23,345 nt of DNA from a virus. How positions within the stretch are numbered: the first letter of the stretch is position 1; each line of letters starts with the position of its first letter. The notes beneath the pieces were generated by a model, which saw only the letters and a program-made list of their open reading frames with translations, was not told where the DNA came from and did no database searches. The position numbers and the translations under genes are program-made. This document shows positions 1,985-23,345 of the stretch, one piece after another. The stretch spans positions 1 to 23,345 of IMG/VR virus record IMGVR_UViG_3300006929_000128. The stretch is one strand, 5' to 3'.

Positions 1985-2005
1985 AAATTGATAGGTTACA
2001 ACACA

Positions 2006-3526
2006 TTGAGTAAAAACAAACCGTTTTACGAAAAATCCGATATTACAAATCCAAAGAATACAATTAATATCACATATGGAGAACTTTTGCAAAAGAGTTC
2101 TGATGAAGTTGATACGTGGATTGATGAATTACGTGATTATGTAATTACCAATTGGGACAAGGGACAACCACCTGTTATTGGTCAAAACGAAGAAGACATT
2201 ATTAAGAAGTGGAATAAACTTCACGAAGTGAACGTAAATGATTTCTACACAAAGAAGACTGGTGTTATACGAAACTTTAACAAGTTGGCTAGTGGTGTGA
2301 ATCAATTCTTTCCCACGATGTTAAAGACAAAGATTTCTACGGGCGTTAGTAGTGATAACGCTCATTCCATATATGATATGTTTAGTGATGATAATCTTAG
2401 AGATAAGTTTTCCAAGGCCATGAAACGTGGGTTATACAAAGATAGTATGTATAGTTTTGGTAAGACATTGAAACGAAAAGATGTGGGTGATGTAGAGGAT
2501 TACATTAATAAAATAAACAACGATAAAGATTTCGGTCTCACTATTATTCAACAGAAAAATAAACATCAAGTAAGTGAAAATGGAACGTGGTTAAGTTTTA
2601 CTGGTACTCAAGTACAAGAATTATTAGATAAAAATATATTAACTAAAGATAATATCAGAACATTAGATGGTGTAGAGTTAGATGATACTATAGTTTTAAA
2701 GAATGGTCAAACAAGATATTATCACTATCATTGTAGACAATACAATCGTAATCAAAGAATCTTTCCAACGGCATTACAAATCTTTAGATTGGGTTTGGGA
2801 CAGCCGGCGGTTAACTTTCCAGCATTAACTGCAAGATTTCTATATGAACATTTTACAGAACATATCAAGGGTGATGTAATAGTGTATGACCCGTCAGCTG
2901 GTTGGGGTGGAAGAATATTAGGAGCCATGTGTACTAATAGAACATTACACTATATAGGTACTGATCCCAATCCTGATAATGTTGGAAGATATGAGAACGT
3001 AGCTGAGTTCTATAATACTCATTGTAACCAAGATAATCGATTTTGGGGTGATAGAGAAAAGAACACGTATAGCGTATTTACGAACGGTAGTGAAGAGATA
3101 TATAACAATTCCGAATTTCGTAAATACGAAGGTCAAGTCGATTTCGTCTTTACTTCACCACCTTACTTTAACCGAGAACAATACTCTCAAGATGATAACC
3201 AATCGTTTAAGAAATTTTCGGCGTACGAAGATTGGCGTGATAACTTTCTTAGACCGACCTTGACAACGGCGTACAAGATGTTAAAGGATGACCGATATAT
3301 CGCTTGGAACATTGCCGACATCAAGGTAGGTTCTAATAAACCTCTAATTCCATTAGAACAAGATAGTATTGATGTTATTGAATCATTAGGTGGTAAGTAC
3401 ATCACAACTTACAAAATGTTAATGACACGAATGGTTGGACTTAAACCAACACAAGGAAAGAATTCTGTGAAACATGATGGTAGTTATTTTAAATTTGAAC
3501 CAATATTAATATTCAAGAAAGGATAA
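2006..3526 (+). CDS. DNA methyltransferase (amino-group type, motif I before TSPPY)
   Basis: The product is about 506 aa from TTG 2006, which has AGGT (1993-1996) nine bases upstream; TTG 1988 is also in frame but would lie almost at the transcription start. Residues 1-280 match nothing I recognise and may hold a target-recognition or partner domain. The catalytic half has the AdoMet-binding motif VYDPSAGWGGR (about 293-303), an acidic motif II (GTDPNPDN, about 319-326) and motif IV FTSPPY (382-387), the signature of enzymes that methylate N6 of adenine or N4 of cytosine. The order I then IV differs from the second methyltransferase at 4492. It probably protects phage DNA from host restriction or regulates packaging or transcription. 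Specificity cannot be read from sequence. It heads an apparent operon with genes 3529, 3714 and 4492. Confidence 0.85.
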   Translation: MSKNKPFYEKSDITNPKNTINITYGELLQKSSDEVDTWIDELRDYVITNWDKGQPPVIGQNEEDIIKKWNKLHEVNVNDFYTKKTGVIRNFNKLASGVNQFFPTMLKTKISTGVSSDNAHSIYDMFSDDNLRDKFSKAMKRGLYKDSMYSFGKTLKRKDVGDVEDYINKINNDKDFGLTIIQQKNKHQVSENGTWLSFTGTQVQELLDKNILTKDNIRTLDGVELDDTIVLKNGQTRYYHYHCRQYNRNQRIFPTALQIFRLGLGQPAVNFPALTARFLYEHFTEHIKGDVIVYDPSAGWGGRILGAMCTNRTLHYIGTDPNPDNVGRYENVAEFYNTHCNQDNRFWGDREKNTYSVFTNGSEEIYNNSEFRKYEGQVDFVFTSPPYFNREQYSQDDNQSFKKFSAYEDWRDNFLRPTLTTAYKMLKDDRYIAWNIADIKVGSNKPLIPLEQDSIDVIESLGGKYITTYKMLMTRMVGLKPTQGKNSVKHDGSYFKFEPILIFKKG

Positions 3527-3717: not shown

Positions 3718-4502
3718 AAAATCTAACTGAACAACAACTAATAGACAATTATCAAAAATTGATTGATATTGTTGAAGATACGTTTGAGGGTGAACGAAAA
3801 GAAAATCTTTTAAAGATGTACAAGTTCTTTGAAGATAGAATCATAGTAGCACCAGCAAGTGGTAAACCAAATTATCATTATTGTTTTGCAGGTGGTTATG
3901 TAGAACACGTATTACATATTGTGGACACGGCAAAAAAGTTGATGAAGGTGTATGAATCAATCGGAGCAGTAATAGATTTTACTGAAGAGGAATTGGTGTT
4001 TTGTGCTTTACATCACGACTTAGGTAAAGTTGGTGATTTAGAGAATGAATATTATTTACCACAAGAAGATGATTGGAGACGAAAGAAATTAAATGAATGG
4101 TTCACTCATAATCCTGAGATGCAATACATGGGTGTTACAGATAGGGCTATATGGTTACTACAACATTTTGATGTAAAGATTTCACAATTAGAATTCTTAT
4201 CTATTAAAGTTTCTGATGGTATGTATGATGATGCAAATGTTCAGTATTTAAAAACATTTAAACCAGAAAATAGTTTTCATTCAAGTCTACCATACTTGAT
4301 ACATTGGGCTGACCACATGGCCACGAGAGCAGAATATACCGAGTGGAAATATGGTGAAACTAAATCAAAAGAAAATGTTCAGAAGGCTGTGAGTAATATT
4401 AAAGATGCTGTATCTAAAGAAGTAAAGAAGATTGAAACAACACCTGCTGAGAAAAAAGAAAACGCAAAGGATTTATTTGACGAGTTATTTGGTGAAAAAT
4501 AA
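3714..4502 (+). CDS. HD-domain phosphohydrolase
   Basis: The product is 262 aa. The HD superfamily metal-binding residues appear in order: H65 in GGYVEHVLHI, H101-D102 in CALHHDLGKVGD, and D200 in LIHWADHMATRAEY. These would coordinate divalent metal for cleaving a phosphomonoester or phosphodiester bond, typically in a nucleotide. The C-terminal 50 residues are charged and helical, ending AKDLFDELFGEK. The start overlaps the previous gene by four bases, and the end overlaps the next methyltransferase by 11 bases if that begins at GTG 4492. Placement between two DNA methyltransferases suggests a role in nucleotide pool handling for DNA modification, or in removing a signalling nucleotide used by host defence. 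The substrate cannot be told from sequence. Confidence 0.85.
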   Translation: MKNLTEQQLIDNYQKLIDIVEDTFEGERKENLLKMYKFFEDRIIVAPASGKPNYHYCFAGGYVEHVLHIVDTAKKLMKVYESIGAVIDFTEEELVFCALHHDLGKVGDLENEYYLPQEDDWRRKKLNEWFTHNPEMQYMGVTDRAIWLLQHFDVKISQLEFLSIKVSDGMYDDANVQYLKTFKPENSFHSSLPYLIHWADHMATRAEYTEWKYGETKSKENVQKAVSNIKDAVSKEVKKIETTPAEKKENAKDLFDELFGEK

Positions 4503-5145
4503 AATCTTTAACGAGGATTGTTTAGACACAATAAAAAGAGATTTACAATATGACTATTGTTTTTTCTCACCACCCGATTATGATGAATTAGGAATTACAC
4601 CTATAAAGGATGATGAAAAATATTTTGGATGGATGAGAGACATATATTCTAATTTAAATCCACGTAAAAATGTTGTGACAATTGTCGTTAGTAATCGTAG
4701 ATATAATAGAAGAACTATTCCAAAACATGAATATGTAACTTCAATAATGAAAGATTTAGGTTATGATTTATTGAATGAAAAGATTTGGGAGAAGTCAAAA
4801 GAAATAAATATGTATCGTTATAATTACGCATTTGTTTTGTGTTATGGTAAAAAGAATTTTAAATCAAAAAATACAAAACAATTTAAATACGATATTTGGT
4901 TTCATCCATTTGAATCGTATAGAGGGTATAGTTATAATTTTTCTAAAGATATGGTATCACGATGTATAGAAAATTATACAGAAGTAGGTGATGTAGTTTA
5001 CGATCCTTTCATTGGTGTTGGTACTACTGCATTAGCATGTTTAGATACCGAAAGAAATTATTTAGGTTCTGAGATTGATTCGGAAGTTTATGAACTTTGT
5101 ATGAATCGAATAGAACAAGAACAAAGGAGTACAAAATGGTTTTAG
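4492..5145 (+). CDS. DNA methyltransferase, beta-type order (motif IV then motif I)
   Basis: The product is 217 aa from GTG 4492 (MKNKIFNEDCLDTI); the in-frame ATG at 4432 would add an unconserved, oppositely framed stretch inside the HD gene. Motif IV is near the N-terminus, FFSPPDYDELG (residues 24-34). The AdoMet motif is near the C-terminus, VVYDPFIGVGTTALA (168-182), followed by an acidic loop GSEID. This circular order matches the N6-adenine/N4-cytosine enzymes of the beta class. Oddly, the catalytic tetrapeptide is SPPD with Tyr one residue later, where an aromatic residue normally follows directly after the prolines. It is a short enzyme without an obvious target-recognition domain, so it may be solitary with low specificity, or may depend on a partner. 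It closes the cassette and overlaps the next gene by ten bases. Confidence 0.85.
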   Translation: MKNKIFNEDCLDTIKRDLQYDYCFFSPPDYDELGITPIKDDEKYFGWMRDIYSNLNPRKNVVTIVVSNRRYNRRTIPKHEYVTSIMKDLGYDLLNEKIWEKSKEINMYRYNYAFVLCYGKKNFKSKNTKQFKYDIWFHPFESYRGYSYNFSKDMVSRCIENYTEVGDVVYDPFIGVGTTALACLDTERNYLGSEIDSEVYELCMNRIEQEQRSTKWF

Positions 5146-6162: not shown

Positions 6163-6384
6163 CTACTTACGGAATAAACCCACCAACACCAACAATGCGA
6201 CGAGCCCTGCGAACCCAGAATCGCCGAACTTGTTTATGATAGATGTCAGGTTACCGATAACATTTACACCAAAGATTCCACTTCCAAAGATTACTTCAGA
6301 AACAGCACCGATGGTAACAAAGGAAAGTAGAAGATGAGCTACATCATCTACCCAACCCTTGACGAGTGTTATGACTTCCTTCAT
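6163..6384 (-). CDS. Two-helix membrane peptide, holin-like (73 aa)
   Basis: This is the only gene on the minus strand. The start is ATG 6384-6382 with GGGAG about nine bases upstream. The sequence has two hydrophobic segments: VDDVAHLLLSFVTIGAVSEV plus the following FGSGIFGV, and SGFAGLVALLVLVGLFRK at the C-terminus, which ends in a positive charge. Gly-rich turns lie between them. Size, two membrane helices and short charged ends match small phage holins, which open the inner membrane at lysis, though no family is certain and a virion membrane protein or small channel is also possible. It is transcribed toward the terminator it shares with the sigma factor. A minus-strand copy of TATAAATATA (6482-6473) and a leader hairpin lie upstream. 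Confidence 0.7.
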   Translation of the reverse strand: MKEVITLVKGWVDDVAHLLLSFVTIGAVSEVIFGSGIFGVNVIGNLTSIINKFGDSGFAGLVALLVLVGLFRK

Positions 6385-8699: not shown

Positions 8700-9119
8700 A
8701 TGGCGTCAATACGAGAATTAAATGAAAACGATGATGTATTTGTTGGAATTACACTTCCACTTAAACCTGGAAGAACTGGTCATTTTCAACAATCTAAAAC
8801 TCTAAGAGAACAGGCATATAGTAATTTAAAAAATCTTATATTGACTGCCAAAGGTGAACGTTTAGGACAACCAACTTTTGGTTGTGATATTCAAACTCTA
8901 ATTTTTGAACCTATCATAGAAACTTCGGCTGATACTATTGAGGAGTCAGTTAGAGATGCGGTAAGTAATTGGTTACCATACATAACAATTCAAAATGTGT
9001 TTGTTACTTTTGAAGGTCAAGATAATAACAGAATAAGATTACAAATTGAGTATTCGGTAACCATCGATGAACCAGATTCACTCGACACAATAACATTTAA
9101 TTTTAATGTAGGAATATAA
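8700..9119 (+). CDS. 25: Baseplate wedge protein gp25-like
   Basis: The product is 139 aa, close to T4 gp25 (132 aa). The family hallmark is LKNLILTAKGERLGQPTFGCDI (residues 43-64), followed by LIFEPI, a helix ETSADTIEESVRDAVSNWLPY and then ITIQNVFV. It ends with beta strands (RLQIEYSVTI, DTITFNFNVGI). This is the GPW/gp25 fold that nucleates sheath assembly and joins the baseplate wedge to gp6. A ribosome site AGGAAT precedes ATG 8700. The stop is one base before the next start at 9121, giving the conserved gp25-gp6 gene pair. Together the pair is among the firmest evidence that the phage has a contractile tail. Confidence 0.9.
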   Translation: MASIRELNENDDVFVGITLPLKPGRTGHFQQSKTLREQAYSNLKNLILTAKGERLGQPTFGCDIQTLIFEPIIETSADTIEESVRDAVSNWLPYITIQNVFVTFEGQDNNRIRLQIEYSVTIDEPDSLDTITFNFNVGI

Positions 9120-9120
9120 G

Positions 9121-11079
9121 ATGCCAGATTATGGGACAAATAAAAAATCAATTTCTAAAGAAGTACGATACGTTGGTAGAGACTTTACTGCAATAAGACA
9201 GAATCTTATTGAGTTCGCTAAATCATATTTTCCAAACTCATACAATGACTTTAATGAAGCATCACCAGGTATGATGTTTATTGAAATGGCAGCTTATGTG
9301 GGTGATGTGTTGAATTATTATGTGGACAATCAATTTAGAGAATCTCTATTACATGCGGCAGAAGAAAAGAAAAATATTTATAAAATCGCACAATCACTTG
9401 GATATAAACCAAAAGTATCTCATCCATCAACTGCTGTTTGTGAATTCCGAGTAGAGGTTCCAGCAACCACCGATGATAATATTAATTACAAACCAGATTT
9501 AAATTATGCTCCAATCATAGATGGTAATAGTTTATTTGGTGCATCTAATGGTTCTGAATTCAGATTAATGGACGATGTAAATTTTGCAGCATCCTCTTCC
9601 CTTGATAGAACAGCTGTTCAAATTTCTAAACTGGCTGATAACGTACCAACTTATTACATTCTTACAAAATCAGGACTTGTAGAGTCTGGTAAAAGAACTT
9701 CCGAAACTTTTACATTTGGAAGTGCAGAAAAATTTAATACCATAGTTTTAAGTAATTCTAAAACTGTTGAAATTATATCTGTTACAGATTCAGATGGAAA
9801 TAAGTGGTACGAAGTTCCTTTCTTGGCACAAGATACTGTTTTTGAATCAGTATCAAACTCTTCAGATAATGATCCTGAGTTATCAACTTTTTCAAATGAC
9901 ACACCGTATTTGTTAAAGTTGATTAAGTCTTCTCGTAGATTTACTACATATGTTCGTAGTGATGGAAAAACAGAATTAAGATTTGGTGCAGGTATTAGTA
10001 ATAATCCAGATGAAGAAATTATTCCAAATCCAGATAACGTTGGTAGTTCACTTGCAACAGGTTTATCTAAACTTGATGAATCATTTGATCCAAGTAACTT
10101 TTTAAAGACACGTGCATTTGGTCTATCACCAAGTAATACTACTTTGACTGTGATTTATACTCATGGTGGTTCAGTTGACGAAAATGTTTTAAGTGGTGAA
10201 ATAAATGCAAAACGAGTTGTTAATTTTACACTTAATGAAACTGGTTTAGATTTATCTGAAGTAAACGCTACGAAGAATAGTTTAGCGATTACTAACTTAG
10301 AACCTGCTAGTGGTGGTTCTGATGGTGAGACCGATACAGAGATTAAAGAGAATGCATTAGCATATTTTAACTCACAAAATAGGGCTGTAACAAAAGAAGA
10401 TTATATTACGAGAGTGTACTCACTACCACAGAAGTTTGGAAATATAGCAAAGGCATATATAGTTCAAGATGAATCTATTTCAAATCGACAAGTTGTATCG
10501 GAAGATGGTCAGAGTACCACAACTGCAGTTTCTAAAATACCTAATCCGTTAGCTATGAATTTATATATGTTAGGTTATGATAGAAATCAAAATTTAGTTA
10601 GACTTAATAAGGCAGTAAAAGAAAATGTAAAAACTTATTTGTCACAATATAGATTGATGACTGACGCAATAAACATCCGTGATGGATATATGATTAATAT
10701 TGGAGTGAAGTTTGCAATAATCACACAACGTGGTTTTAATAAAAATGAAGTTTTATTTAATTGTGTAGAGACAATCAAAAACCACTTTGACATTAAGAAG
10801 TGGCAGTTTAATCAACCAATTATCACGAGTGATATTGCATATAAGATTTCATTAGTGGATGGTGTTGCGAGTGTTGTTCCACCAATAAATGATAATCCAC
10901 AAAAACAATTAGTATTGATAGAAAATAAATATAAATATTCAGAAGGATATTCAGGTTATGTGTATGACTTACAATCAGCAACCAAAGATGGTATTATTTA
11001 CCCATCATTAGATCCAAGTATATTTGAAGTTAAATTTCCAAACTCAGATATTGAGGGTAGAGTAGTAGGAGACATTTAA
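9121..11079 (+). CDS. 6: Baseplate wedge protein gp6-like (baseplate J family)
   Basis: The product is 652 aa, against 660 for T4 gp6. The N-terminal family region has FTAIRQNLIEFAKSYFP, then DFNEASPGMMFIEMAAYVGD and VLNYYVDNQFRESLL, all typical of baseplate J/gp6 proteins. The middle contains beta-rich segments, and about residue 400 has ASGGSDGETDTEIKENALAY followed by NRAVTKEDYITRV, another family hallmark. gp6 dimers form the inner ring of the baseplate that dilates on contraction. It follows gp25 directly and overlaps the next start by one base (TAATG), with AGGAG serving the downstream gene inside its end. Confidence 0.9.
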   Translation: MPDYGTNKKSISKEVRYVGRDFTAIRQNLIEFAKSYFPNSYNDFNEASPGMMFIEMAAYVGDVLNYYVDNQFRESLLHAAEEKKNIYKIAQSLGYKPKVSHPSTAVCEFRVEVPATTDDNINYKPDLNYAPIIDGNSLFGASNGSEFRLMDDVNFAASSSLDRTAVQISKLADNVPTYYILTKSGLVESGKRTSETFTFGSAEKFNTIVLSNSKTVEIISVTDSDGNKWYEVPFLAQDTVFESVSNSSDNDPELSTFSNDTPYLLKLIKSSRRFTTYVRSDGKTELRFGAGISNNPDEEIIPNPDNVGSSLATGLSKLDESFDPSNFLKTRAFGLSPSNTTLTVIYTHGGSVDENVLSGEINAKRVVNFTLNETGLDLSEVNATKNSLAITNLEPASGGSDGETDTEIKENALAYFNSQNRAVTKEDYITRVYSLPQKFGNIAKAYIVQDESISNRQVVSEDGQSTTTAVSKIPNPLAMNLYMLGYDRNQNLVRLNKAVKENVKTYLSQYRLMTDAINIRDGYMINIGVKFAIITQRGFNKNEVLFNCVETIKNHFDIKKWQFNQPIITSDIAYKISLVDGVASVVPPINDNPQKQLVLIENKYKYSEGYSGYVYDLQSATKDGIIYPSLDPSIFEVKFPNSDIEGRVVGDI

Positions 11080-17785: not shown

Positions 17786-18808
17786 ATGGCAGACGCATAT
17801 AAAGATTTTACTATAGACACGGATGTAGTCTCAGATAGAACTACGGTATCAAGTGGATTATTTAGTGGTGGAGCTGGAAGTCTTACAACTTTCTATTCCG
17901 CATCTACTCAAGGTGCAAGTTCAGCATCTTACTTAAATGTATTTGATAAGGCACAGACAGATTCGACAAGAGAGGTACAATTTGCAGTAGGATACGCACA
18001 TCATGGTGGAAGTGGTTCAATAGGAAACACAACTAAAACAAATGCTGGTAACAGAGAAACTGCTGGAATGTATAGACAATTTGTTAATGTTCTTTTACCT
18101 CCAAACCAAGATAAATTTCAATTTACAAGTTACACTTCTGCTTCTGATGATATATTTTTTGTAGTCATGAATAGGGCTCGTATGAGAGAGAAGATGGATC
18201 CAGGTAATTGGGAACTTCATCTCGGAAGTACTTTCCCTCTCGTTAAACTAATTGATGATAGTGGAGCAACCACAACACCTACGGTGAATCAAGCAGGACG
18301 TGTTTTTAATATTGTGAGTGGTTCAATCCAAAGTGGAACGGCAGATACATTTCTTACAGCAGCCGCTGGAGGTTCCGTTGGTAATTTCTATCCTGATTTA
18401 GGAATTATAATTATGGATGCATCTTATATACAATCAAAAGCTTTAGTTACTACTACAAAGAGTACAAATACTTTTGATGATACTCCATCTGAATTCTTTA
18501 AACAAATGAATGGTGCTGGTGGATATTTTGCAGCACGTAGAGAAGAAGAAGTAACTTCAACGATGTATTTCTGTAGAGCGAATAACAAAGAATTTAACTT
18601 TAGTAACAATCCAACATTTGCAACTAAATCTGGTGATACTGAGGGTGTGTTTACACAAACTACATTTGAGGGAGATCCTAAAACTTTTGTAACTCAAGTT
18701 GGATTATACAATGATAATAGTGAATTATTGGCAATTGCTAAGTTAAGTAAACCTGTTCTAAAATCATTCTCAAGGGAGGCTGTAATTAAGGTCAAGCTTG
18801 ATTTCTAA
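17786..18808 (+). CDS. Tail or fibre structural protein with shared C-terminal module
   Basis: The product is 340 aa, with AAGGA upstream of ATG 17786. It has Gly/Ser-rich, beta-type sequence throughout (TVSSGLFSGGAGSLTTFYSA, DKFQFTSYTSASDDIFFVVM, IFNIVSGSIQ-like phrases). The C-terminal 40 residues, FVTQVGLYNDNSELLAIAKL followed by SKPVLKSFSREAVIKVKLDF, match the end of the next gene's product (YVTQVGLYDEQNRLLAHAKL). This shared end module is probably an interaction or trimerisation element rather than a receptor-binding tip. No enzyme motif is visible. It lies in a three-gene unit with the genes at 17146 and 18821. Exact role (fibre, collar or baseplate spike) cannot be settled. Confidence 0.7.
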   Translation: MADAYKDFTIDTDVVSDRTTVSSGLFSGGAGSLTTFYSASTQGASSASYLNVFDKAQTDSTREVQFAVGYAHHGGSGSIGNTTKTNAGNRETAGMYRQFVNVLLPPNQDKFQFTSYTSASDDIFFVVMNRARMREKMDPGNWELHLGSTFPLVKLIDDSGATTTPTVNQAGRVFNIVSGSIQSGTADTFLTAAAGGSVGNFYPDLGIIIMDASYIQSKALVTTTKSTNTFDDTPSEFFKQMNGAGGYFAARREEEVTSTMYFCRANNKEFNFSNNPTFATKSGDTEGVFTQTTFEGDPKTFVTQVGLYNDNSELLAIAKLSKPVLKSFSREAVIKVKLDF

Positions 18809-18820
18809 TAGGGGATACTA

Positions 18821-20347
18821 ATGTATAAATTGATAGACCCCCAAAATATATCCAAGAGGTCTTTTACAACTAATAAAAAGTTTACTGTCACTAACAACGA
18901 TAGTGCCAGTTTTGGTAATTTTGCTATTAGGGCTATAAGTAGCTCACATCATAATTATGCAACCTCATCGGATACGGTTACTCACATTGTATCTGGTTCA
19001 ATTTCGAGTAGTTATTACGCACTTCCAACTTATAGTGTTATTAGAAAATTATACTATGAGGATATTCACAGAAGATTTAATACTAAGAAACTCCAAAAAA
19101 CTGAATTATCTACTACTGCTAATGTATTTAGTATACCAAGAAATCTAATAGGAGAGAGAATAAAACCAGGTAGTGTTAAATTATCTGATACTTCATTAGG
19201 ACAAACTTTTGACATTAGAGATGATGAAGACGGCAATTTATATGACTATGGAAATTTTTCTGGTAGTTATGCGGCATATAAATCAAGTTCATTTGATAGG
19301 TCTCAAGGAATAAACGTTAGTGGTAGTGGTAGTCAAATTGGTAACGTGTTTTACGAACATGGTATAATGACCATAACCGATACTGGTTCTTATAGAGATG
19401 TTGGGTTCGGTTCAGCTTATACATTAGACTTTCAGGCAACTCAAAAACATTATGAATATGAATATGTTTGTTCTGTTGGCCAATATGAATTTAATTCCAC
19501 AATGAACATAAGTGCAACTAAAGATAGAAGTGGTAGTATTTCTATTACTGCTGGGCCTGAAACTGTAATTACTGATATAACAGGAAAACCCATTTTAGAT
19601 GATGGTAGAAAACAAGTAATATATAGTACATCACCTTATAGTAAGTTACCTCCTGGTTCTGCACCAAAAGGAGAAATAATTTCTAATGGTGGATTTGACC
19701 AAGTTGTTTCTACTAATGGTACTTCAGTTTTAGGAGATTGGAGTACTGATGGTACAGCGACACTCTTTACTTCTTCTAATGCTGAACTAATATTATCGGC
19801 AAGTGCTGGTAATTGGCCAGCTCATGTTGCTCGAGCATCACAAGAAATAAGTGTTAAAAAAGGAAAAGATTATTTAATAACTGGTAAATATAGACCAGGA
19901 ACAAGCTTAGCAAATGGTGGTTATGGACAAGTCTATATAGGAGATGATGAATATTTTTCAGGTAACTATAGGGCCATAAGTAGTCAATTGAGAACTACTA
20001 CTTCAGAACTTACAAGTTCTTGGCAACTTCCATTTCGTGCAACTTCTGATACTCATTATGTTTTACTTTCTATGTTTAGGAATGCACAAAACGATGATGT
20101 TATATGGGATTCTGTTTCATTAAAAGAGTGGCACGGATTTGAAAGTGGAATTGGTGATTATCAATCATCATATCAGGCCACCGATACATATGAAAATTTT
20201 GTAACACACTCGGAGTTCAGACCATATGTTACACAAGTAGGGTTATATGATGAACAAAACAGGTTACTCGCACATGCCAAACTCGGCAAGCCAATTAAAC
20301 TTGATGACCAATACGATACATCTTTTGTCGTTAGGTTTGATGTTTAA
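18821..20347 (+). CDS. Tail or fibre structural protein with inserted carbohydrate-binding-like domain
   Basis: The product is 508 aa from ATG 18821, preceded by AGGGGA. Residues 1-270 are Ser/Tyr/Gly-rich beta sequence. Residues about 283-437 look like a separate jelly-roll of the CBM4/9 kind: it opens EIISNGGFDQ and GDWSTDGTA, includes RASQEISVKKGKDYLITGKY and a stretch of aromatic strands, and closes DVIWDSVSLKEW. Such domains bind polysaccharide. After it, WHGFESGIGDYQSSYQ resumes the tail protein, and the C-terminus (YVTQVGLYDEQNRLLAHAKL, then GKPIKLDD) matches that of the previous gene. The insertion between two parts of a tail protein suggests a host-glycan recognition module. The gene ends the unit; a gap with a hairpin and another candidate late element follows. 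Confidence 0.7.
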   Translation: MYKLIDPQNISKRSFTTNKKFTVTNNDSASFGNFAIRAISSSHHNYATSSDTVTHIVSGSISSSYYALPTYSVIRKLYYEDIHRRFNTKKLQKTELSTTANVFSIPRNLIGERIKPGSVKLSDTSLGQTFDIRDDEDGNLYDYGNFSGSYAAYKSSSFDRSQGINVSGSGSQIGNVFYEHGIMTITDTGSYRDVGFGSAYTLDFQATQKHYEYEYVCSVGQYEFNSTMNISATKDRSGSISITAGPETVITDITGKPILDDGRKQVIYSTSPYSKLPPGSAPKGEIISNGGFDQVVSTNGTSVLGDWSTDGTATLFTSSNAELILSASAGNWPAHVARASQEISVKKGKDYLITGKYRPGTSLANGGYGQVYIGDDEYFSGNYRAISSQLRTTTSELTSSWQLPFRATSDTHYVLLSMFRNAQNDDVIWDSVSLKEWHGFESGIGDYQSSYQATDTYENFVTHSEFRPYVTQVGLYDEQNRLLAHAKLGKPIKLDDQYDTSFVVRFDV

Positions 20348-20436: not shown

Positions 20437-23244
20437 ATGCGCAAGTTTCTATTAAGTCTCATGATAATGGTGATGAGTTTATCATATGCTCAAACACCAA
20501 TCATTAGACTTTTACAATCAAGAACATATGATACACCAATGTTTTGGTGGAGAGATACCTTAACTCATAAGTTAAGAGGATATTTAGCTGACGATACTAC
20601 TGGTATGTCAACTGCTAATGCTGCCTCTGGTGTTGCTTATAAAAATAATAACTTTGATGCTTGGAGAGATTCAGTAATGACTATTGCCGTTACACTTGAT
20701 GATAAAGGAGCAAGTGTTACTGCATTTCGTTTAGATTTAGTGTTTGATAATGATTTAATAACTTGGGGACACGACTCAACACGTGTAGAGAAAGGTGCAT
20801 ATATTAATGGATGGACTGAGGGAGATAGTGCAGCTGGTGCACATTATTCGTATGAAGTAGTTCGTTATGCAGATGTTGGGTATACTGATTCACTAGCTGC
20901 AGCTGGTAGTGAGAAATCTGTAAGTGCAGCTAGATACGATTGGTTAAGAATTACAATGGTATCACATAACGGAAACGTTAAGACATTTGGTAATGGAAAT
21001 AATACCCAAACAGAATTGTTAAAATTACATTTTAAAATAAATGATGTTGTTGATAATTTTTCACCACAATCATTTAGAGTGGCTACTAACTATGAGGGTA
21101 GTACAGGATATTATACTTATTTAACTAATGGTAATTATGCTTCTAATTATAAAGTTTATATAGATGGAAATGTTGGTACACAAACAGATGGTGTTGGTAA
21201 TGCTCGTGGTGATATTACATTACATCCAAAACTTTTAGATGTTGAGGGTTACTTTAGATACGTACAAGGTAAAGGTAGAGCCGTTGGTTCGGCCTTTACA
21301 ACCGCAACCGAGAATACATATCCATATTGGAAAGTCAAGTTTGAATTATGGGAAAGAGCAGCTGGTAAATCTAATTGGTATAACATACAAAGTATTGCAA
21401 ATGACGCAAGTAAAACTGACGAAGACTTGAGTGATGATGTTATAGGTGGTGCTGGTACATATTATTATGATAAAAAGTCAACCACTGCACTTCAGACAAC
21501 TACGGGTAATGGATTCTTAGGTATAAGTTATTACGATTCAACTTATACTGATGACAAGGGTTACTTCAATATTCAGTTACCAAGAAACAATGATTATCGT
21601 ATATCATTCTGGCCACCTGATGATGATGACGATATAGAGAATCATAACCAAACTAAATTTGATAGAGAGGCCATTACTAATATAAATGATGCAGTTATGT
21701 CATTTAATTTCCAATCAGGTAAACATCACAATTATAATAGTGGTGCTGGAAGAATTGATACGTTAAATTCTATTGAATACTTTATCGGTGATGTTGATGG
21801 TGATGACAAGTTCTTTTTAAATGACACATATATTTTATGGAGTTATGTATCGGGTATTATGAGTCAATACGCACACCATAGTTATGATGTTGTTGCAGAC
21901 TCACTACAAGATTGGTCTTCGATTGACAATTTTAATGGCACTAATACAACATATAATTACTATCAGACTTTGATGGCTGGTGATACAAGAAAACAAAAAT
22001 ATGAGTTCACGGTATTTTGGGATAAGAATTTTAATCAGTCACAGGCTCTTACATATGGTGAGATTGAAACAATAAACCCACTTATGAATGATATCGTAAC
22101 TGGCCAAGACACTTTATATATTAGTTTAGTGGGTAATAATCCTGATGGGGATGCGGATTCCTCACGTTATCTGTATGATGATCCTGTAGATTTCACACTT
22201 GACAGTATAGCTTACTTTTTCACTGGTGATATAAACACTACGGGTACAAAAGTTAAGGCTACTATGTCTAATGCAAATACATCTGATCCAGGTTCAGGTA
22301 TTGCTAACGCTAATAGTTCTGGTTATCAAACATTAAATGGTTCGACATTTTATCGTTGGGCAGGTGGTAGTGCACCAGGTGAACATTCTAATAAAATTTA
22401 TGATCCTAATGTACCAGGTAGTTTATCGAAATTAACATCTGACATAGGTGAGTATAATGTTAAACTTTCATTACCAAGTGATTCTACTGTTAGAGTTCAG
22501 TCTGGTAATCAGATAGAAGTTCCTCTAACTGTTACACCTAATGAGGGTGTTACTATAGCAGCCTTTGAATTTGAAATAGAATTTAAACCTGAAGATTTGA
22601 CATTTATAGATGTAAAAACTGATGTGTTACCAGGGCCGTGGATGACATATGTAAATGTAGGTGAAGTTGTTGATGGGTGGCAAAGAGTTTCTTTTGGTGG
22701 TATGGATTACTCACCAAGTAACGCACCAGAAAGATATTTAATTAACAAAGAGGTAGTTGGGTTGAAATTATTATTTTCTGCTGATTTCCCACCTGGTGAG
22801 TGGACAGATGCACCGATAAGATTTGTCGGTAAATATGCTGCAGCATCACCAGCTGGTAGAGACTTGACAATGAAACGTGATGATGGTTTGGTTCGTGTAT
22901 GGAACAAGTATTGGTTGTTCGGTGGTAAAAAACCTGAGAACGAGGAAATAACTTATAACTTTCCAAACCCATTTACAGAGAATACAAAGTTTCAGTTTTA
23001 TCTTTCTGAACCACAAAATGTTAAACTTTATATTTTAAATTCTATCGGTCAGAGAGTTGGAACACTATTAAATGAACACGTGTTGTCAGGAATACATTAT
23101 TTTGATTTTACAAACGAACCAAGCATTTGGATACCTGAACAAAGTGTATATGAATCACATCAAAAATTAGAACCAGGTGTTTATATATTTGTTTTACAAA
23201 CAGATAAAAGAATCAAAACATCTAAATTTACGGTGGTAAAATAA
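20437..23244 (+). CDS. Large secreted protein with cohesin/dockerin-like modules and T9SS sorting domain
   Basis: The product is 935 aa. ATG 20437 has GGGGAAA upstream and gives a classical signal peptide, MRKFLLSLMIMVMSLSYA, with cleavage before QTP. Residues about 55-235 form a cohesin-like beta-sandwich (TAFRLDLVFDNDLITW). Residues 405-475 contain a dockerin-like pair: AITNINDAVMSFNFQSG, then IGDVDGDDKFFLNDTYILWS, whose D-x-D-x-D loop should bind calcium. Residues about 677-822 form a second cohesin-like domain (IAAFEFEIEFKPEDLTFIDV). From about 838 is a type A T9SS sorting domain: YNFPNPFTENTKFQFYLSEP, VKLYILNSIGQRVGTLL, PGVYIFVLQTDKR and TSKFTVVK, with an extra 15 or so residues before PGVY. 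The family carries Sec- then T9SS-exported proteins to the cell surface. It overlaps the next start by one base. A host-surface role such as receptor masking is inferred. Confidence 0.8.
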   Translation: MRKFLLSLMIMVMSLSYAQTPIIRLLQSRTYDTPMFWWRDTLTHKLRGYLADDTTGMSTANAASGVAYKNNNFDAWRDSVMTIAVTLDDKGASVTAFRLDLVFDNDLITWGHDSTRVEKGAYINGWTEGDSAAGAHYSYEVVRYADVGYTDSLAAAGSEKSVSAARYDWLRITMVSHNGNVKTFGNGNNTQTELLKLHFKINDVVDNFSPQSFRVATNYEGSTGYYTYLTNGNYASNYKVYIDGNVGTQTDGVGNARGDITLHPKLLDVEGYFRYVQGKGRAVGSAFTTATENTYPYWKVKFELWERAAGKSNWYNIQSIANDASKTDEDLSDDVIGGAGTYYYDKKSTTALQTTTGNGFLGISYYDSTYTDDKGYFNIQLPRNNDYRISFWPPDDDDDIENHNQTKFDREAITNINDAVMSFNFQSGKHHNYNSGAGRIDTLNSIEYFIGDVDGDDKFFLNDTYILWSYVSGIMSQYAHHSYDVVADSLQDWSSIDNFNGTNTTYNYYQTLMAGDTRKQKYEFTVFWDKNFNQSQALTYGEIETINPLMNDIVTGQDTLYISLVGNNPDGDADSSRYLYDDPVDFTLDSIAYFFTGDINTTGTKVKATMSNANTSDPGSGIANANSSGYQTLNGSTFYRWAGGSAPGEHSNKIYDPNVPGSLSKLTSDIGEYNVKLSLPSDSTVRVQSGNQIEVPLTVTPNEGVTIAAFEFEIEFKPEDLTFIDVKTDVLPGPWMTYVNVGEVVDGWQRVSFGGMDYSPSNAPERYLINKEVVGLKLLFSADFPPGEWTDAPIRFVGKYAAASPAGRDLTMKRDDGLVRVWNKYWLFGGKKPENEEITYNFPNPFTENTKFQFYLSEPQNVKLYILNSIGQRVGTLLNEHVLSGIHYFDFTNEPSIWIPEQSVYESHQKLEPGVYIFVLQTDKRIKTSKFTVVK

Positions 23245-23345
23245 TGGATGAATGGCAATTCTTTTTAGTAATAGCATTGATGTTACCAGCATTATATTAT
23301 ACGATGAAATTTATCGTGTGGTTTTCTGAAAGAGTAGAAAGAAAA
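23244..23345 (+). CDS. 5' part of a membrane protein, coupled to the T9SS-type gene (truncated by window edge)
   Basis: ATG 23244 overlaps the previous stop by one base (TAATG), and the frame stays open to the window end (34 residues seen). The visible start, MDEWQFFLVIALMLPALYYT followed by MKFIVWFSERVERK, is a hydrophobic membrane segment with an aromatic flank and a positively charged exit. Function cannot be assigned from this fragment. Translational coupling suggests the two proteins work together or are needed in fixed proportion. Confidence 0.6.
   Translation, partial: MDEWQFFLVIALMLPALYYTMKFIVWFSERVERK

Follow-up and report, generated by a model that had tools for sequence, protein, structure and literature searches.

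Phages that encode cargo for the type IX secretion system (T9SS) have been reported before, namely, Cryophage (PMC7468147) and the crAss-like phages (PMC6949934). As described in the portions of these two papers on which we draw, Cryophage and crAss-like cluster 2 resemble the locus presented here in carrying genes whose products bear type A T9SS sorting domains and are presumed to use the host system; their cargos, however, are enzymes, a PA14 protein, and BACON-domain proteins, and those portions mention no phage-encoded shuttle. Superinfection exclusion as a role for such cargo was already suggested by the Cryophage authors (PMC7468147, same portion). Known hosts use a single, shared PorV to collect type A cargo at the translocon (PMC12618676), and a shuttle gene located directly 3′ of its cargo gene is typical of type B cargo and PorP/SprF (PMC12618676). 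Parts of a host-surface secretion system are likewise present in pelagimyophages and Melnitz, which are marine and T4-like, but the genes concerned are curli genes, of type VIII rather than type IX secretion, and the hosts are SAR11 and OM43 (PMC7029224, PMC9004378). The cultured Flavobacterium phage immuto (MW353176) has a related baseplate gene (40% identity), a protein combining a cohesin with a T9SS C-terminal sorting domain (CTD) (QQO91933.1; TIGR04183, 47 bits), and, in the same cassette, an exported protein that is homologous (28%) (immuto35A_13 to _19); it differs in that its exported proteins are several, short, and located near replication genes, and in that a PorV-family gene was looked for and none was found.

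The DNA analyzed here, called the window below, is the whole of a linear IMG/VR record that is 23,345 bases long. Compared with Cryophage and crAss-like phages, as far as the cited portions describe them, the phage group represented by the window has a conserved cohesin/dockerin-type cargo that is always followed by a PorV-family gene. The arrangement is analogous to that of type B cargo and PorP-SprF pairs, in which a cargo gene for an adhesin-like protein immediately precedes a dedicated outer membrane shuttle gene (PMC12618676, PMC9143113), but the phage cargo has a type A CTD (TIGR04183) and the phage shuttle is of the PorV family. The features on which the following account relies are listed below.

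8700 to 9119, plus strand: baseplate wedge gp25 (PF04965, E 5e-15; phrog_261, E 2e-27)
9121 to 11079, plus strand: baseplate wedge gp6-like protein (the annotated immuto baseplate wedge protein is 40% identical over 98%)
17786 to 18808, plus strand: first tail-fiber-like gene, upstream of the cargo gene and transcribed in its direction (synteny in nearly all relatives)
18821 to 20347, plus strand: second tail-fiber-like gene, adjoining the cargo gene on its 5′ side (synteny in nearly all relatives)
20437 to 23244, plus strand: cargo gene, encoding a predicted exported protein of 935 aa with a T9SS type A sorting domain (frame, TIGR04183, relatives, family alignment)
20437 to 20490, plus strand: predicted signal peptide, aa 1 to 18, with Q19 as the probable new N terminus under the Q-rule (Q column in 30 of 30 members with an N terminus)
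20650 to 21261, plus strand: N-terminal beta-rich region, aa 72 to 275 (model pLDDT mostly 60 to 87, with weaker patches)
21787 to 21858, plus strand: dockerin-like calcium-binding loop, aa 451 to 474, GDVDGDDKFFLNDTYILWSYVSGI (EF-loop spacing; motif level only)
22444 to 22905, plus strand: cohesin domain, aa 670 to 823 (PF00963 in 29 of 31 members; structural match to type I cohesins)
22960 to 23235, plus strand: T9SS type A CTD, aa 842 to 933 (TIGR04183; seven beta-strands in the model)
23244 to 23345, plus strand: 35-codon membrane-peptide frame, overlapping the cargo stop (TAATG) and truncated by the window end
12912 to 13772 of contig L002, a near-identical relative: PorV-family gene

The 935-aa frame is present as originally predicted, opening with ATG at 20437 and with its stop ending at 23244 (a TTG lying 12 nt further upstream is an alternative start, for a product of 939 aa), and every C-terminal motif quoted in that prediction was found in it. 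Its claimed position directly after tail genes and in the same base composition also held: the gene follows T4-like baseplate and tail genes (gp25, gp6, and two tail-fiber-like genes), and GC content is about 0.33 to 0.37 on either side, with no break in composition relative to the tail genes. The order of baseplate genes, two fiber-like genes, and cargo gene is found in the great majority of contigs with sufficient upstream DNA. Matches to the T4 late promoter TATAAATA numbered 7 against 5.1 expected, giving no signal.

Several other features were noted in the upstream region and in relatives. Two DNA methyltransferase-like genes (1988 to 3526, N6_N4_Mtase, E 6e-8; 4432 to 5145, recognized by eye) flank an HD-domain-like gene, and a 73-aa membrane-peptide frame (6163 to 6384) lies on the minus strand in otherwise plus-strand surroundings, where GC skew falls to near zero. 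Some relatives have a ferredoxin-like gene with 4Fe-4S motifs within the tail block (L004:1197-1496, L006:393-695, L119, and L124), and one contig (L233:12959-13300) carries a phage-encoded tmRNA gene with the tag GTQANLTYAYA.

Scans of IMG/VR identified the cargo family in 81 further contigs, all of them fragments. At 95% nucleotide identity, the 48 complete cargo genes among these and that of the window fall into 34 clusters; the family alignment comprises 31 members, 30 of which retain the N terminus. Compared with five relatives, the whole gene has a dN/dS of 0.13 to 0.25 and the CTD one of about 0.1 to 0.2, showing that the cargo gene is under purifying selection. As a query, the cargo had no match in the phage collection, and no PHROGs family matched it. 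Across 396 Flavobacteriales genomes, the sole strong match was a small contig of MAG NAT55 (NZWA01000008.1; L201:1-8398) that is itself this phage block, so that the MAG holds phage DNA, either through binning or from an infected cell. The cargo gene thus belongs to the phage DNA of an uncultured T4-like phage group.

The N-terminal signal peptide that had been predicted for the cargo is supported by a basic and hydrophobic leader at residues 1 to 18, ending ...SLSYA|Q, which was called by eye from charge and hydropathy and is followed by glutamine at position +1 in 30/30 members. Such counts for the Q-rule were taken from alignment columns only, as a pattern count also fires on the fiber proteins.

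The C terminus likewise bore out the prediction of a type A T9SS sorting domain. When the whole window protein was scanned, residues 842 to 933 matched TIGR04183 at 22.2 bits (E 1e-4), slightly short of the curated cutoff of 23, and in the genome search the same stretch reached 27.8 bits (E 4e-8), above it. The match is not random, since all 31 aligned members have it (best E 1.1e-9); the type B model TIGR04131, which the original prediction had proposed searching alongside, is absent from the NCBIfam families matched across the 31 members. The phage CTD contains an insertion of about 20 aa, and its TIGR04183 score lies near the cutoff in single-protein scans. Its model has seven strands (pLDDT mostly 70 to 84), the number stated for type A CTDs (PMC12618676), although the list of structural matches was occupied by the cohesin domain. 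A profile built from the phage CTDs matched many cellular cargo-like proteins in Flavobacteriales, some of them short, exported, and bearing an ordinary CTD at the C-terminal end, and its top PDB match, a weak one (E 0.012), was 8glj_D, the CTD of a substrate solved in the T9SS translocon complex. Secretion of the cargo by the T9SS is a well-supported expectation.

Between leader and CTD, the best-defined module is the cohesin domain. PF00963 was matched by 29 of the 31 members (E up to 0.01), with the window protein below the Pfam cutoff (18.9 versus 24.1 bits), and the cohesin model superposed on type I cohesins with a Z score of 15.7 (2.2 Å over 140 residues). The full-length cargo was modeled poorly (mean pLDDT 57.7), and only this match and the CTD strand count were taken from the model; the Foldseek list was uninformative for the other parts of the cargo. 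The dockerin-like loop, GDVDGDD....LND, is nearly invariant, and its acidic positions are fully so, with D452, D454, D456, and D463 at exact EF-loop spacing in 31/31 members. A dockerin has two EF-hand-like repeats; here one loop is perfect and invariant and the second repeat is doubtful, and the Pfam dockerin model (PF00404) had no match at E 0.01 among the 31 members. In immuto, the run of exported genes (L177:10527-16409; immuto35A_13 to _19) encodes a C-type lectin with a dockerin-like loop, a cohesin-like protein, the cohesin-CTD protein, and further small exported families, and possibly represents the marine cargo in separate pieces.

The original prediction also pointed to an FCB-type, T9SS-bearing host. 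The evidence agrees and narrows the probable host to Bacteroidota, as the Q-rule has been reported as Bacteroidetes-only within the FCB group (PMC5837995), glutamine follows the leader in all 30 cargos, and Q25 is invariant in the PorV-family protein described below. A Bacteroidota host for the cargo-bearing phages is also suggested by immuto, a cultured relative with a cohesin-CTD protein that grows on Flavobacterium, and, weakly, by the binning of such a phage contig with a Flavobacteriales MAG. In Microcystis phage Mel-JY01, which has a gp6 with 48% identity, TIGR04183 had no match.

What the original prediction missed, because it lies beyond the window end, is a PorV-family gene. Judging from the near-identical L002, it is expected at 23348, 3 bases past the end of the window. 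A PorV/PorQ-family gene directly follows the cargo in 47/47 contigs in which the cargo gene is complete and the sequence continues for at least 300 nt (gaps of −4 to 495 nt), although these contigs share ancestry; the small membrane-peptide frame, also seen in L003, L106, L113, and L161, often sits between the two. A search (A6) of 20 fragmentary contigs yielded nothing, a result that carries little information because those with the cargo break off inside it. All 30 aligned members of the phage protein family matched the PorV_fam model NF033709, whose cutoff of 90 bits was exceeded by L002 and L004 (104 and 108.5 bits), with several single members below it. Against the equivalog models for PorV (NF033710, cutoff 250) and PorQ (NF033711, cutoff 220), L002 and L004 scored 60 to 73 bits and did not reach the cutoffs. 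The single sequence match of the phage profile in the PDB was Flavobacterium johnsoniae PorV (E 2.9e-15), and the AlphaFold model (pLDDT 86.7), an outer membrane barrel of the FadL-like fold, had PorV (8gl6_F) as its best fold match (Z 30.6, 3.4 Å over 262 residues). Despite these likenesses, the phage protein differs from the PorV of F. johnsoniae and Porphyromonas gingivalis in being about 290 rather than about 390 aa long, in clustering separately from the cellular PorV and PorQ proteins sampled (in a quick tree with some long branches and weak deep placement), and in that its gene adjoins its presumed cargo. No match to it was found in the phage collection, and the genome scan returned only the binned phage contig and one Hymenobacter PorV. 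As it misses the equivalog cutoffs and groups separately in the tree, the phage barrel is not PorV itself but a PorV-like protein from a branch specific to phages, and may have a different job. Separately, a contig in a Flavobacteriales MAG (L298:1-8400) carries several PorV-like paralogues beside CTD-bearing cargo genes; its gene mix looks un-Flavobacteriales, and it may be foreign.

Taken together, we consider it reasonably likely that the phage cargo passes through Sec and the host T9SS to the cell surface, that the phage PorV-family shuttle collects and places it, and that the surface is thereby altered late in infection. Both cargo and PorV-like barrel would leave the cytoplasm through Sec, the CTD would direct the cargo through the host SprA translocon, and the phage protein, which we infer binds the cargo CTD, would take the cargo from SprA and hand it over for anchoring or release. 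The exposed part would consist of the cohesin module, the dockerin-like loop, and the large beta-rich N terminus, and might act as an adhesive or scaffold-forming surface protein on a cell whose surface is changed late in infection; late expression of the cargo is presumed, and a surface function, most likely a changed or adhesive cell surface, is speculative. The original prediction had proposed that the cargo blocks superinfection, masks the receptor, or holds released virions; the results do not discriminate among exclusion, masking, clumping, and support of lysis. A dedicated phage PorV would be unusual, since type A cargo in hosts shares one. Perhaps the phage would need its own because the host supply becomes limiting late in infection or because the CTD is unusual in its insertion.

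The alternative that survives best, although we think it unlikely, is that the cargo is carried by the host PorV, that the phage barrel is a general FadL-type porin or a BamG-like barrel, and that adjacency merely reflects inheritance of the operon as a block. FadL (Z 27.2) and BamG-type barrels (Z 23.5) also match the model, though more weakly than PorV, the BamG model matches 1/30 members, and the PorV equivalog cutoffs are missed; moreover, immuto has a CTD protein and no PorV, so that a phage PorV is not always needed. However, PorV is the best match both by sequence and by fold, the family model is matched throughout the alignment, and adjacency to the cargo persists down to 27% PorV identity while other surrounding genes come and go.

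Beyond the PorV-family gene lie, in order, genes for a membrane protein with a coiled coil, a lipoprotein, a barrel-like protein predicted to be exported, a further exported protein, and a protein that weakly resembles Rz/LysB, and the cassette runs on into a PAP2 phosphatase; this order is nearly constant among relatives. Three relatives without the cargo (L323, L324, and L325) also lack PorV and three exported families, so that the cassette looks gained or lost as a unit, and at the same site after the fiber genes they have a different exported-protein set (L323:1-9329, L324:10600-13181, and L325:12700-18750). That set includes repeated barrel-like proteins with the motif ...FFKYSTAY.GF...YYWERP.Y..., a lipoprotein, and a Q-rule protein. 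We regard the slot after the fiber genes as an exchangeable envelope-cassette site. Two exported proteins and the downstream barrel appeared CsgG/CsgF-like by eye; PDB and Pfam profile searches gave no support, and we do not call them curli genes.

Given its contents, the cassette could instead be mainly a lysis or envelope disruption module, with the cargo, barrel, lipoprotein, and Rz/LysB-like protein acting jointly on the outer membrane as infection ends. The Rz/LysB-like protein and the PAP2 phosphatase that continue the cassette fit such a role, and one in lysis has been suggested for phage curli pores (PMC9004378), but an export-tagged 900-residue protein of the cohesin/dockerin type is unexpected for a lysis protein and the CsgG resemblance was unconfirmed by profile searches, making this explanation quite improbable. 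Still less probable is that the cargo is a virion part, such as a tail accessory, that is put in place after release or, its leader notwithstanding, is assembled in the cytoplasm: it does follow tail-fiber-like genes in nearly all relatives, but the conserved leader with its +1 glutamine, the type A sorting domain in every member, and the adjoining shuttle-like gene are at odds with a virion role. Finally, the joining of a host gene to phage DNA by misassembly can be dismissed, in keeping with the original call of a phage gene, because the 81 other viral contigs carry the family in the same gene order and the sole strong match in the Flavobacteriales genomes is itself a phage contig.

We therefore return to secretion by the host T9SS with a phage-encoded shuttle as the preferred reading. 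A more ambitious version, which we offer tentatively and hold to be somewhat less probable, is that the type A cargo and its dedicated PorV-type shuttle constitute a complete add-on for the host T9SS, whereas hosts are known to pair a cargo with a shuttle of its own only for type B cargo and PorP/SprF. Late in infection, the add-on would redirect the translocon so that a layer based on cohesin and dockerin forms on the infected cell. A search of the open-licence literature turned up no T9SS shuttle encoded by a phage.

Previously, phage T9SS cargo was known in the form of scattered, variable genes; here it is conserved in a block after the tail-fiber genes of a widespread phage group and is accompanied by an apparent component of the T9SS machinery. 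If our reading is true, the T9SS shuttle described here would be the first found to be encoded by a phage, type A cargo may have dedicated shuttles, and how and why phages rebuild the Bacteroidota cell surface before lysis would become testable.
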